NCBI GenBank assembly: GCA_021813725.1
Contig: JAKAJN010000002.1
Coordinates: 1 to 64,000 of the forward strand
Length of the DNA: 64,000 nucleotides
DNA from: a bacterium
GTDB lineage: Bacteria; Gemmatimonadota; Gemmatimonadetes; Gemmatimonadales; Gemmatimonadaceae
Direction of reading: 5' to 3'
This document shows, piece after piece, positions 57,057 to 62,015 of the stretch; positions within the stretch are counted from its first letter, which is position 1, and every line of letters begins with the position of its first letter. Below the pieces are notes generated by a model. It was not told where the DNA came from. It saw only the letters and a list, made by a program, of their open reading frames with translations, and ran no database searches. Both the position numbers and the translations under genes were made by a program.

Positions 57057-60000
57057 CTAGGGTCGGCGAGGGCTTGCTGGCATGCTGTCGGCGTCAAGCG
57101 CCGACCAGTCGATGTCGCGGCGCACGCCGCTCCAGATGTCGAGCGGACCGACCAAGAGACGGCCGCCGAACCGGTCGTTGCCGGAGATGACGAGAATGAG
57201 GCTGTCCGCTGGCGCCGACATGGCCGTGGTGGCGAGCGGCTTCGCGTCGAGGGCAAGCGCACAGCGTCCATCGGGCAGGTACTGTAGTCGGATGCGATGC
57301 CACGACCCGTTCAGCAACGTGGGAGTGGCGCGGAACATCGAAGAGAATGACTTCCCTAGCAAGACGAAGTGGTCGCGAAAGGACGCACCTTCGGCGCCCG
57401 GTATCGTGATCGCGCAGTTCGCACCGCCACTTGCCAGATCGCCAGTCCGGTGATCCCAATGGCTCATGAACTCGAGGCGCCGTGCGTCGGTGATCTCGAC
57501 GATCAGGGTCTGCCACTGCGACGCCGTGACCAGCAGTGACACCTCCGCCTCGATTCCAGCGCCGTTCGACGCGGGGAACGCCTTGCGCAGATAGGCGCCC
57601 GAGCCATACGAGCCGTCGCCGTTGGGAAGGAGCGCCGGACCGTGCGGGGTGGGCACGACGATGCCTGCCGGCACACCGAACGGCTGCCAGCGACTTTCCC
57701 AGTCTGCCGTCCATCGTTCGGCGAGCACCGGGCGGGACGCGGCGGCAACAATTCGCACGTGGGCCGAGTCCGTGCGCCAGCCGCCCGCGCTCACGACGAT
57801 CCACACGGTGCCGACACGACGCGGCCGCAGGCGACCAGTGGAGTCCACCGTGGCGATTGCCGTGTCCCTCGACAGCCACCGCAGGTCGTGCAGCCAGGCC
57901 GGCGCGCCGTTCGCGCGAGACCCGTGTGCAAGCAGCGGATGCGAGATGCCGAGGGCGTAGCCCGCGGGACGTACCTCGAGCCGCAACGTGTCGATCCAGC
58001 GACGATCATAGGTTGGAGCCACGTGCCGGATAGCACCTCGCAGCGGTGCACCGCGGAATCGCACCGGGCGCGCCGCCGCGGGATCTGATGTGGGGAAGAG
58101 GCAGACCGACGGCGTCGCCCCCTCGGAAAACACGCACTCCCCGACGCCGACACTTCCGTTGATCGCGGTGACCCGCATCGACACCCGTCCGATCGGGCTG
58201 CGCAGTCCGGTCGACGCGTCGACCGCGGTCAGCGTCCCCGTAGAGCTGGCGACCAGCAATCGGCGCTCATCCATCCATCCGATGATGGATTCCTGATGGT
58301 GCAAGACATCTCTGAGGCACCGCTCGTGCGTGCCATCCACGTCAACCAGGCAGAGTTGGTCGGAGCGCTTGACCGTGTAGTACATGCGCTGGAACGCGAG
58401 CTGCGTGCCGTCGGGTCGCCAGCTCGGGATGCGATCCGACTCTTGCGTGAAGGTCAGGCGGCGAAGGGTCCCGCCGCGGAGATCGCCGGTCACGATATGC
58501 ATATGGTCGGTGATCGTGTCGAACCGCGCGGTCAGCCCAGTAAATTGACGTCCATCGGGCGACAGATTTCCGACTCCATCGTCGCCAGCATTCGCCATCG
58601 GCAGGTGGCGCCGTCCCAGCGAGTCGATGAAGATGAACTCATCGCCGAGCACCGGATCGACGAATCCCGCCCACCACTCCTTCGCGTTTGGACTACGCTC
58701 CCAGCGTCCCTTCACCCCGCCCGTTGAACTCGGGAACTGGCTGGCGTCGAGTGCCTTCGCTTCGATCGGTGCGTTGTCGTCCCAGCGAAAGTCCCGCGGG
58801 AGCCGCACGCCGACAAGCTGGCCGCCGCCGGTAGTGCTGTCCACCGTCCAGACGGTGAAGTCCGAGGTCAGCGGCACCGGGGTGCGTCGCCACGCCGCGG
58901 TCGCCGCCAGGGTGACAGTTGCCATGAGGCCGGCTGCCGCTAGCCAGCGTGCGCGCTGGCGTAGCCGCCATGGCGTAGACCGCATCAAGTCGACGACCGC
59001 GCGCTGGTCCGCGGCGCGCCCCAGCAGATCGGCCGCCACGCGCCGGGTGGCGCGGCGGTCTCCGGCACGCCGGCGCGACACCAGGAACCGCTGCCAGACC
59101 AGGCGGACGAGCGCCTGATCGCCCGCCGCGGACGCATGCTCGACCACGCGCCGCAACGCGATCTCGTCCGTGGCGCGCACGAGCATGGCGCGCGCAATCA
59201 CCGAGTGCATCGCCCGCTGCTCCACCTGTGGCGTCGCCTGCGCCACGGCGTCCGCAATCTCGTCGTGCGCCACCTGCAACTGCGTGCCGTGACGCAGGAC
59301 GAATCCCCCGCGCTCCAGCGTCTCCACGTGTTCGCGAACGCCGTCGGCCTCGTCGCCGACCATCTCCAGCGCCTCGTCCAGCTCGATTGGGCGACCGACC
59401 AGCGCGAGTGCCAGCAAGACCCGCCGGGCGGCCGGTGCGAGCCGCATCGCTCGTTGCTGCACCGCGCTCCCTTCGCGCAGCGAATCGGTCACGCGCCGGG
59501 GGTCGTCGCATTGCCAAGCGCCGAACTCCGACACGGACAGCTTCCCTTGTTCGAGCGCGTCGTGCAGCGTCTCGACGAGCAGCAGTGGCGATCCGCCGGT
59601 CGCGAGCAGCAGCTGCTGCGGCAGCACGTCGGCCCACGGTGCGGCGGGCAACTCCGCCACCTGCGACACGAACGATGTCACCGCCGCGAGATCGAGCGGC
59701 GGCAGTGCGAGCTGCTCGAACGACGTGAAGAGCGCGCGCGGATCCGCGACGGGACGCTTGGTCAGCACAACGAGCAGCCCGGCGTGTTCGAGCCGCGACA
59801 GTGCCGCGGCCAAGACGCGGGCCGAGTGCTCGTCCGCCCAGTGCAGGTCGTCAAGCAGAATGGCCGCCGGATGCTCGTCGCTCACCGCGTGCATCAGGTC
59901 CACCAGCGCCAGTGCCCGGCGACGCACCGCCTCCTCTCCCTCGCTCGTGTCGGGCGTCGCCGACGCGTACACGGACGAGAGCGCCGGCGCCAGCGACACG

Positions 60001-61046
60001 AGCACACCCGCCGACGCCGTGGAGATCGCCGCCGCCCCGGGCAGTTCAGCGAGTCCCGACGCGACAACCGCGGCGAACCCGCCGCTGAGGTGGCGGTCGC
60101 CGGGGTTGGCGCGCATCAGCACGCAGCGCGCTCGCGAGGCGCGCAACCTCGCCTGCACATCGCGCAGGAGCCGGCTCTTTCCGAGGCCCGCGGCGGCCGA
60201 AATGGCCACCACGCGCGGCGTGCCGCCGCGCGCCTGCTCCCACGCGGCCAGAATGTGACTGAACTCCGCCTCGCGCCCCACCAGCTCAGCGGCAATGGAC
60301 GCCGAGGGGCCCGTCTCGCCCGGCGTGCGCGCCGCTGGCGAATGACGCGCGGCGCGCAGGGCGGTGATGGTGGCTGCTTCCGGCTCTGACTCCTCGCGTG
60401 CCAGGAACGCTTCAAAGTGCTCCGCTTCGCTCGTCGCGCCCAGGCCGTCACTCCCCGCGATCAGGGTTTCCAGCAGCAGCCGCCAGGTCGCCTGGTCCAT
60501 CGGGTCCACGTCACGGGCGCGCCGGGCGAGTTCCTGGGCGTCGCGGAACTTCCCCTCGGAGAGCCACTGGCGGGCGAGCGCGTCCGCGCAGCGCAGGAAG
60601 GTCACAGTCAGCCGACGGCGCTCGAGTTCGCACCACTGCTCGAACTCTGATGCTCCCGGTGCAGCGAAGTCCGGGATGAAGGCACCGGTGTGCCGCTGAA
60701 CAGCCGTGGCGAAATCAGCGCGCTGCGCCGCCTGCAAGAACAGGTCGCGATCGCAGCTGAACGGAAGGACAAGCGCGAGCATCTCGTTGGATACCTCGAA
60801 CAGCCCTTCGCCCAGCTTCTTCTTGAGGTACCAGACCGTCTGCCGCAGGTTCTGCCGAGCGGCATCGGTCTCGACATCACCCCACAGCAATGCTGCCAGG
60901 TGCTCGCGGCTTGCCTTGAGCCCGGGAATGCACGCCAGGTAGGCAAGCATCGCCACCGGCTTCCCTCGACCCAAGGTGCGCGTGTTCCCTTCGGCGTCCG
61001 TCGTCGCCGCTTGCAAGGAACCGAGCGTTGTCAGCGTCAGATGCAT
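57057..61046 (-). CDS. Membrane-anchored SARP-type regulator: winged helix, BTAD, ATPase, TM, beta-propeller, Ig-like, LamG-like
   Basis: A 1329-residue protein. Residues 1-95 are an OmpR-type winged helix (LGRGKPVAMLAYLACIPG, then LAALLWGDVETDAARQNLRQ) and about 100-250 the bacterial transcriptional activation domain, as in SARPs. Residues about 255-620 are an AfsR/MalT-like STAND ATPase (Walker A SAAAGLGKSR near 285; Walker B AILLDDLHWADEHS near 394). One transmembrane helix lies at about 698-716 (WLAAAGLMATVTLAATAAW). The exported half has TolB-like propeller blades (740-1035, for example DRIPSWRPDGTQLAFQRM), a bacterial Ig-like segment (about 1045-1098) and a LamG-like sandwich (1105-1325). 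It probably senses an extracytoplasmic ligand and controls transcription directly. GCGTCAC-type repeats upstream may be its own operator. Confidence 0.85.
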   Translation of the reverse strand: MHLTLTTLGSLQAATTDAEGNTRTLGRGKPVAMLAYLACIPGLKASREHLAALLWGDVETDAARQNLRQTVWYLKKKLGEGLFEVSNEMLALVLPFSCDRDLFLQAAQRADFATAVQRHTGAFIPDFAAPGASEFEQWCELERRRLTVTFLRCADALARQWLSEGKFRDAQELARRARDVDPMDQATWRLLLETLIAGSDGLGATSEAEHFEAFLAREESEPEAATITALRAARHSPAARTPGETGPSASIAAELVGREAEFSHILAAWEQARGGTPRVVAISAAAGLGKSRLLRDVQARLRASRARCVLMRANPGDRHLSGGFAAVVASGLAELPGAAAISTASAGVLVSLAPALSSVYASATPDTSEGEEAVRRRALALVDLMHAVSDEHPAAILLDDLHWADEHSARVLAAALSRLEHAGLLVVLTKRPVADPRALFTSFEQLALPPLDLAAVTSFVSQVAELPAAPWADVLPQQLLLATGGSPLLLVETLHDALEQGKLSVSEFGAWQCDDPRRVTDSLREGSAVQQRAMRLAPAARRVLLALALVGRPIELDEALEMVGDEADGVREHVETLERGGFVLRHGTQLQVAHDEIADAVAQATPQVEQRAMHSVIARAMLVRATDEIALRRVVEHASAAGDQALVRLVWQRFLVSRRRAGDRRATRRVAADLLGRAADQRAVVDLMRSTPWRLRQRARWLAAAGLMATVTLAATAAWRRTPVPLTSDFTVWTVDSTTGGGQLVGVRLPRDFRWDDNAPIEAKALDASQFPSSTGGVKGRWERSPNAKEWWAGFVDPVLGDEFIFIDSLGRRHLPMANAGDDGVGNLSPDGRQFTGLTARFDTITDHMHIVTGDLRGGTLRRLTFTQESDRIPSWRPDGTQLAFQRMYYTVKRSDQLCLVDVDGTHERCLRDVLHHQESIIGWMDERRLLVASSTGTLTAVDASTGLRSPIGRVSMRVTAINGSVGVGECVFSEGATPSVCLFPTSDPAAARPVRFRGAPLRGAIRHVAPTYDRRWIDTLRLEVRPAGYALGISHPLLAHGSRANGAPAWLHDLRWLSRDTAIATVDSTGRLRPRRVGTVWIVVSAGGWRTDSAHVRIVAAASRPVLAERWTADWESRWQPFGVPAGIVVPTPHGPALLPNGDGSYGSGAYLRKAFPASNGAGIEAEVSLLVTASQWQTLIVEITDARRLEFMSHWDHRTGDLASGGANCAITIPGAEGASFRDHFVLLGKSFSSMFRATPTLLNGSWHRIRLQYLPDGRCALALDAKPLATTAMSAPADSLILVISGNDRFGGRLLVGPLDIWSGVRRDIDWSALDADSMPASPRRP

Positions 61047-61127
61047 TCTCGGAGCCCGCGTGCAGCGGCCTCAGTCGAGCGGAGGTTCCAAAGAGAGAGT
61101 TCTTGACACGCGTATTTTCTGACGCGA

Positions 61128-61154
61128 GCGTCACAGCCGCGTCAGACCCGTCAG
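61128..61154. promoter_or_regulatory. Heptamer direct repeats upstream of the SARP-type gene
   Basis: GCGTCAC (61128-61134) and GCGTCAG (61139-61145) are 11 bp apart, followed by GTCAG at 61150. An inverted copy TGACGCG sits at 61120-61126. On the minus strand this reads TGACGCG-GCTG-TGACGCT, about 80-95 bp upstream of the regulator's start codon. SARP proteins bind heptamer direct repeats at 11-bp spacing, so autoregulation is suggested. Confidence 0.45.
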
Positions 61155-61182
61155 ATGTTTGCTGAGCCGAACCGGGCGCGTC

Positions 61183-61224
61183 AAAAAGACACGCGGGAGT
61201 CAGCGCCGTCGCAGACTCCCGCGT
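61183..61224 (-). terminator. Rho-independent terminator of thyX
   Basis: On the minus strand an 11-bp perfect stem (61214-61224 pairing with 61191-61201, ACGCGGGAGTC/GACTCCCGCGT) is followed by GTCTTTTTGACG. It begins about 36 bp after the thyX stop. The GC-rich stem plus T5 tract is a clear intrinsic terminator. Confidence 0.85.
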
Positions 61225-61259: not shown

Positions 61260-62015
61260 TTACACCTTATGATAGGTGATCCGCGCCGACTCCACCCGGT
61301 CCTCGGCCGTGTAGACTTCGAAGTCCGAGAAGAAGCCCGGCGCCTCGGTCTGCAGCACCCGCAAGATCAGCACGGCAAGCCGGCGGATCTCCTGCTCGGC
61401 CCCCTCGCCTGCGCGCAGTTCGAGCATGGTGCGCCACGCGCGCGCGTTGGCCGTCACCACAATCTTGGTCTCCGTCGAGTTCGGCAGCACGCCGCGCGCC
61501 GCCTCCCGTGCCATCTTGCGCCGGTGCACCTTGTCGGCCACCCAGCTGTAGCGCTCCATCAGCTTCTCGACCAGCGCGATGTACGTCGCCTGCGCCGACT
61601 CCACCTGGGCCTTCCACTGCGCTACGAGCGCGTCATCGCCCTGAATGGCCGGCGGAATCACGAAGGCGGCGTCACTCTCATCCACGTACCGCTGCGAGAG
61701 CTGCGAGTACGCGAAGCCGGCGCGGTGCCGCACCAGTTCGTGCGTCAGCGAACGGCTGATCCCCTCGAGCAGGAGCGAGAAGTTGGCATGCTCGAGCACC
61801 GAACCATGCCCCTGCTTCTTGATGTTCTCCAGATAGTCGCGCGTCGAGCGGTTCGCCGGATTCCGCTGGCTCATGTAGCACAGCCGGCCAGCAAACTCGG
61901 AGAGCCGCTCGCCGTCGGTACTGTCGCCCTGCCAGTGCACCGGCAGATGCGCGGGCTCGGTGAACTGCGGGCGAGACAGGACGGAGACCTTGGGCTCAGC
62001 GTAGAAATGCGGCAT
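61260..62015 (-). CDS. thyX: Flavin-dependent thymidylate synthase
   Basis: A 251-residue FAD enzyme that methylates dUMP to dTMP using methylenetetrahydrofolate and NADPH. The ThyX signature RHR-x8-S is present at Arg96-His97-Arg98 to Ser107 (RHRAGFAYSQLSQRY). GHGSVLEHANFSLLLEGISR binds FAD, and ARGVLPNSTETKIVVTANARAW carries the C-terminal nucleotide contacts. Length is normal. No Shine-Dalgarno precedes the ATG; TCAAAT lies eight bases upstream. An intrinsic terminator follows. Confidence 0.96.
   Translation of the reverse strand: MPHFYAEPKVSVLSRPQFTEPAHLPVHWQGDSTDGERLSEFAGRLCYMSQRNPANRSTRDYLENIKKQGHGSVLEHANFSLLLEGISRSLTHELVRHRAGFAYSQLSQRYVDESDAAFVIPPAIQGDDALVAQWKAQVESAQATYIALVEKLMERYSWVADKVHRRKMAREAARGVLPNSTETKIVVTANARAWRTMLELRAGEGAEQEIRRLAVLILRVLQTEAPGFFSDFEVYTAEDRVESARITYHKV

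Follow-up and report, generated by a model that had tools for sequence, protein, structure and literature searches.

AfsR, the large SARP of Streptomyces coelicolor, consists of a winged helix, a BTAD domain and a STAND/NOD module, in that order, followed by a TPR sensor; no exported half has been described for it. It is a nucleotide-controlled activator which acts at an 11-bp direct-repeat operator, ATP binding relieving the inhibition exerted by its C-terminal domains (PMC10936776). Regulators of the ToxR/CadC/TcpP type have an N-terminal OmpR-type winged helix, a single transmembrane helix and a periplasmic sensor, and possess neither a BTAD domain nor a STAND ATPase. Work on STAND switches has usually concerned cytosolic proteins, and SARPs are mostly studied as activators of antibiotic clusters that act in the cytoplasm. 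MalT, a further STAND regulator, is likewise cytoplasmic and has a different DNA-binding domain, located at its C-terminus.

The window analysed here is a stretch of 64,000 nucleotides from a member of the Gemmatimonadota. Its minus strand encodes, in one open frame with full-length homologues elsewhere, a 1329-residue SARP–STAND regulator (57057–61046; ATG at 61046, stop at 57057). A sequence-only reading had described this protein as a single polypeptide joining SARP, ATPase, membrane and exported modules, and Pfam, alignment and structural models bear out that order. An OmpR-type winged-helix DNA-binding domain (residues 1–95 approximately, 60762–61046) precedes a BTAD domain (about 96–238, 60333–60761), an AAA_16 STAND nucleotide-binding domain (254–427, 59766–60287) and a STAND arm made up of a winged helix and a helical region (about 428–690, 58977–59765). 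Next come an Arg-rich cluster and a predicted N-in transmembrane helix (about 701–719, 58890–58946). The remaining 600 or so residues, which are predicted to be exported, comprise a TolB/PD40-type beta-propeller (about 760–1000, 58047–58769), a BIG2 Ig-like domain (about 1010–1100, 57747–58019) and a concanavalin/L-type-lectin-like domain (about 1105–1322, 57081–57734), all on the minus strand.

Individual domains are recognised with differing clarity. Pfam finds AAA_16 in the window protein with an E-value of 1.5e-20 and PD40 (861–887) over the cut-off, whilst Big_2 (1053–1085) is weak and Trans_reg_C (29–80, E 0.003) falls under the cut-off; BTAD (PF03704) scores 22.2 bits against a cut-off of 22.1 in a genome-scaled search. 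Across 14 full-length members, that is the window protein and 13 others which are 31–63% identical to it and have the whole order in common, AAA_16 is found in all 14, PD40 in 13, Trans_reg_C in 11, BTAD in 10 and Big_2 in nine. Profile matches of the winged helix to AfsR (8hvr), EmbR, CadC and ToxR are all weak, as is that of the SARP part as a whole, for which AfsR 8hvr is the best match in the PDB.

A model of the front half built from seven sequences (mean pLDDT 79, about 90 in the winged helix) contains the winged helix, the BTAD helices, the STAND domain and a final helix. By fold its best PDB match is MalT (8bob), the closest STAND fold, followed by NLR, CED-4, Apaf-1 and ORC/Cdc6 structures. 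Alignment of the homologues shows that the Walker A residues G287, G289 and K290 and the Walker B pair D399-D400 are invariant, as is H594-D595 in the STAND arm, which by its position may be MHD-like. The protein thus has both the winged helix followed by BTAD that characterises SARPs and the P-loop NTPase with Walker motifs, winged-helix arm and MalT/Apaf-1/NLR-like fold that characterises STAND proteins, and by sequence it qualifies as a large SARP and likewise as a STAND ATPase. It differs from AfsR in that a transmembrane helix and a propeller, Ig-like and lectin-like half take the place of the TPR sensor. With ToxR and CadC it shares a layout of winged helix, one membrane helix and extracytoplasmic C-terminal sensor, as far as topology can be read from sequence and model, although the sensor folds are other ones. 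Because a BTAD domain and an ATPase lie between its DNA-binding domain and the membrane it is not classed with them; it is a large SARP of the AfsR type with the apparent topology of ToxR and CadC.

The exported half is modelled, from four sequences and with low confidence (mean pLDDT 58), as all-beta. Foldseek relates this model to TolB and to L-type lectins, namely the Emp46/Emp47 CRD and the legume lectin GS I-B4, at a TMt of about 0.5 for the lectin-like domain, itself part of the low-confidence model. PDB profile searches lead to TolB and to BIG2-type chains (LigB, a teneurin-like chain and the beta-1,3-glucanase BglH). The propeller and Ig-like domain proposed from the sequence are thus recovered, the former through PD40 repeats and the TolB fold, the latter through Big_2, weak as this is in the window copy. 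The LamG-like domain proposed alongside them has some support from the modelled fold and none as a Pfam family: the last 215 residues or so have no Pfam match, LamG families included, in the 14 members of the subfamily, and a divergent homologue (L168) gives a weak hit to Laminin_G_3 (E 0.005). "LamG-like" therefore appears a fair description at the level of the modelled fold, not a family assignment.

We consider it probable that the protein is a one-component transmembrane STAND transcription switch. The lectin, Ig-like and propeller half would bind an extracytoplasmic ligand, which might be a glycan, another polymer or an envelope protein, and binding would alter the packing or clustering of the transmembrane helices so as to release the STAND arm. 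The ATPase would then exchange ADP for ATP and oligomerise. In the manner known from AfsR, the SARP domains would next form dimers at direct-repeat operators and bring in RNA polymerase. The sequence-only reading proposed gating by ATP hydrolysis; by analogy with AfsR, the closest large SARP to have been studied, nucleotide exchange in the STAND domain is the step that the exported half would be expected to control. A more extensive proposal is about evenly poised: that in a phylum-level family an NLR-like STAND ATPase is coupled directly, with a single membrane helix as the link, to a lectin and propeller sensor outside the cytoplasm, such that an outside signal drives nucleotide exchange, SARP-dependent transcription and autoregulation via a dedicated repeat operator. 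If true, this would add to two-component systems and the ToxR/CadC type a further route by which outside signals reach promoters, and would open to experiment the question whether a signal from across a membrane can drive a STAND switch.

The conserved layout is that of a family across the Gemmatimonadota. Of 298 genomes of the phylum, 56 (28 of 119 genera) contain a match to the exported half at E<=1e-20, some of the weakest matches covering only the propeller. Among the open frames retrieved, strong matches always share one frame with a SARP (BTAD) front and nearly always with a STAND domain, L167 and L170 having the SARP front without STAND. A sequencing error joining two genes would have refuted the sequence-only reading. 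Such an error is contradicted by intact full-length frames in many genomes, among them other genera and families of Gemmatimonadota, and by a second full-length copy in the host genome, so that a chimaera can be rejected. Nor does the exported half appear to be a separate gene, since the long lone copies inspected (G000:C13, G305:C172, G002:C208 and G039:C204) end at contig ends. The domain order is thus found in many Gemmatimonadota, which supports a family. G309 is an Acidobacteria MAG, and 247 genomes from its phylum yielded no match to the exported half at E<=1e-30 and no full copy of the architecture. STAND relatives led to 30 genomes in other phyla, which gave no full copy and almost exclusively propeller-region matches; viral collections gave propeller or ATPase fragments only, and plasmid records nothing covering most of the protein. 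A description of the architecture was not found in the open literature, a corpus with few subscription journals.

Two irregular copies were met with in this survey. The orthologue in G004 (G004:C40, approximately 100133–104088; L150:6580-10607) is present as two overlapping frames, the break falling near residue 236 in the stretch that separates BTAD from STAND, for which a frameshift, an assembly error and a pseudogene are alternative explanations. The cut-off exported half at G000:C13:8871-10838 (L004), whose start is nearly identical to that of the paralogue on C179, is probably a third copy in the host genome.

The GC content of the exported half is indeed lower than that of the front (0.672 versus 0.709), as had been noted. 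The drop recurs in nearly all of 35 homologues, and trees of the two halves are largely concordant, with a few supported conflicts (L151/L152/L163 and some deep groups); the exported-half tree has 17 splits with support >=0.9, and 12 of them recur in the tree of the front. On this evidence a recent fusion is rejected and the fusion is old; the GC difference had been taken as consistent with a fusion of modules.

Membrane-bound SARPs appear to be widely used in this phylum. The view that SARPs are normally cytoplasmic, and membrane forms exceptional, does not hold here, since the BTAD proteins on contigs C4, C78 and C158 of the host genome also have a hydrophobic segment; the unusual feature of the window protein is the combination of SARP, STAND, transmembrane helix and exported propeller, Ig-like and lectin-like domains. 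The proteins on C78 and C158 (G000:C78:4500-9500, L207; G000:C158:15500-19464, L208) are SARPs of about 920 residues with the segment after BTAD, and differ from the window protein in lacking a STAND ATPase and in a rear part which by eye is TolB_N/TPR-like rather than propeller and lectin. Proteins of about 1030 residues (C4/L003, L025, L027 and L038) share its front and transmembrane helix and have a shorter exported end; Pfam scans of this end in C4 and L025/L183 gave no match. The host's own example lies at G000:C4:4149-7247 (L003/L182) and has 1033 residues.

Of 150 genomes, 61 contain the front module at E<=1e-60, mostly in frames of about 1330–1450, 1010–1100 or 630–780 residues. Members of the intermediate class that were inspected combine front and transmembrane helix with a different exported end, whilst the shortest class follows from its length to be without an exported half. 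These short SARP–STAND homologues suggest that the front can probably work off the membrane, and with the single-pass topology they suit the strongest rival to a switch acting across the membrane, regulated proteolysis, in which the exported sensor would allow the front to be released as a soluble regulator by a site-1 or intramembrane protease. However, the regulator has no recurrent protease gene among its neighbours, as far as these are annotated, and ToxR/CadC-type regulators are described in the literature as able to act while anchored; we regard proteolytic release as unlikely.

The exported half could alternatively serve as an anchor or adhesion module, attached to cell wall or outer membrane, with regulatory input arriving in the cytoplasm via the STAND domain. 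Adhesins often contain BIG2 and lectin-like domains, and divergent homologues lie among pseudopilin and type II secretion-like genes. Against this, members of the subfamily have the exported half no less regularly than the front, which fits an input role, and the pairing of front modules with different exported ends is what would be expected of swappable sensors, so that an anchoring function seems distinctly improbable beside a sensory one.

The transmembrane segment placed near residue 700 by the sequence-only reading was looked for and is present by hydropathy, alignment and model, the last giving a continuous helix from 693 to 721. In most homologues it ranks among the two most hydrophobic stretches. 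Cysteines beyond it are even in number (0, 2, 4 or 6) in 35 of 35 homologues, as compared with 21 even and 14 odd counts in the front half; because the homologues are related, a binomial value for this count is not a true probability, but the contrast, being between halves of the same proteins, is informative. An even count is expected of disulfides formed outside the cytoplasm. L167, which is not among the 35, has one cysteine only beyond its hydrophobic segment. C899 and C910 in the propeller, on neighbouring strands of the model, and C1211 and C1262 in the lectin-like domain are invariant in all 14 members. These patterns point to a cytoplasmic front and a periplasmic rear half folded with disulfides. 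That the whole protein is instead cytoplasmic, its hydrophobic segment a buried helix and its rear half sensing inside the cell as the TPRs of AfsR do, is very doubtful, for although the window copy's helix is weak by hydropathy (moderately hydrophobic, mean KD below 1.6, GES 1.17) and is exceeded in GES by a STAND-internal segment at residue 337, the segment and its preceding Arg-rich stretch hold the same alignment position in nearly all homologues and are clear in most orthologues, the exported cysteines are even and four of them invariant, and the nearest propeller is that of periplasmic TolB, in company with lectin and BIG2 folds.

Upstream of the regulator lies a candidate operator, TGACG-N4-TGACG-N6-TGACG-N4-CGTCA (61120–61153, minus strand), 78–107 bp before the start codon. 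The motif was noticed on inspection of the upstream sequence and afterwards tested by pattern searches and orthologue comparison. It is kept in the same register in five of six genus orthologues, without mismatch in G004 and G010, with two mismatches in G008 and with a degenerate first arm in G006; G003 has lost it. The flanks have diverged. The full pattern occurs once in the host genome, even when three mismatches are allowed, with 0.03 occurrences expected in the window by shuffling. Among 11 genomes of the genus the mismatch-free three-arm core is found only at these promoters (G000, G004, G006 and G010). The site is a strong phylogenetic footprint and the most likely candidate for an autoregulatory operator, to which the regulator itself may bind; as a candidate it offers a direct experimental handle. 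At promoters activated by SARPs the direct repeats as a rule have a spacing of 11 or 22 bp, with the last repeat 8 bp from the -10 element. The arms here are spaced 9/11/9, providing one 11-bp TGACG repeat that fits this rule, the fourth arm is inverted, and no -10 element lies at the expected distance in the regulator's promoter; the site may therefore belong to another regulator. The pattern was not found upstream of distant family members. A structured RNA at this position was rejected, there being no Rfam family (a chance-level P17 only) and no unusual fold over 134 nt (z -0.02); taken by itself, the core of 56 nt gives z -2.5.

Within the genus the regulator gene is flanked by thyX on one side and an EF-G-like gene on the other, names which we take from our reading of the window translations, in the window itself and at L148, L149 (on the same contig as L039), L147 and L150. 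A terminator-like hairpin with a T-run, read by eye after thyX (61182–61224, minus strand) and not reported by an automatic scan, suggests that the regulator has its own promoter. The second full-length paralogue in the host genome, on C179, occupies a separate locus near folE-like and 6-pyruvoyl-tetrahydropterin synthase-like genes, shared with genus g24. Both paralogue groups thus adjoin folate or pterin genes (thyX at 61263–62015; the folE-like and 6-PTPS-like genes at L161:177-1248), possibly by chance. The neighbourhoods compared reveal no operon partner that all of the family share and that might point to a ligand. In a divergent subgroup (L172, L176, L180 and L181), whose exported half is without cysteines, the gene adjoins pilin-like genes with N_methyl leaders, and at L176 the neighbours also include an ExeA/MshM-like AAA gene, a TPR gene and a GspD-N0-like gene, which hints at a link between this subgroup and type II secretion or MSHA-like pili.
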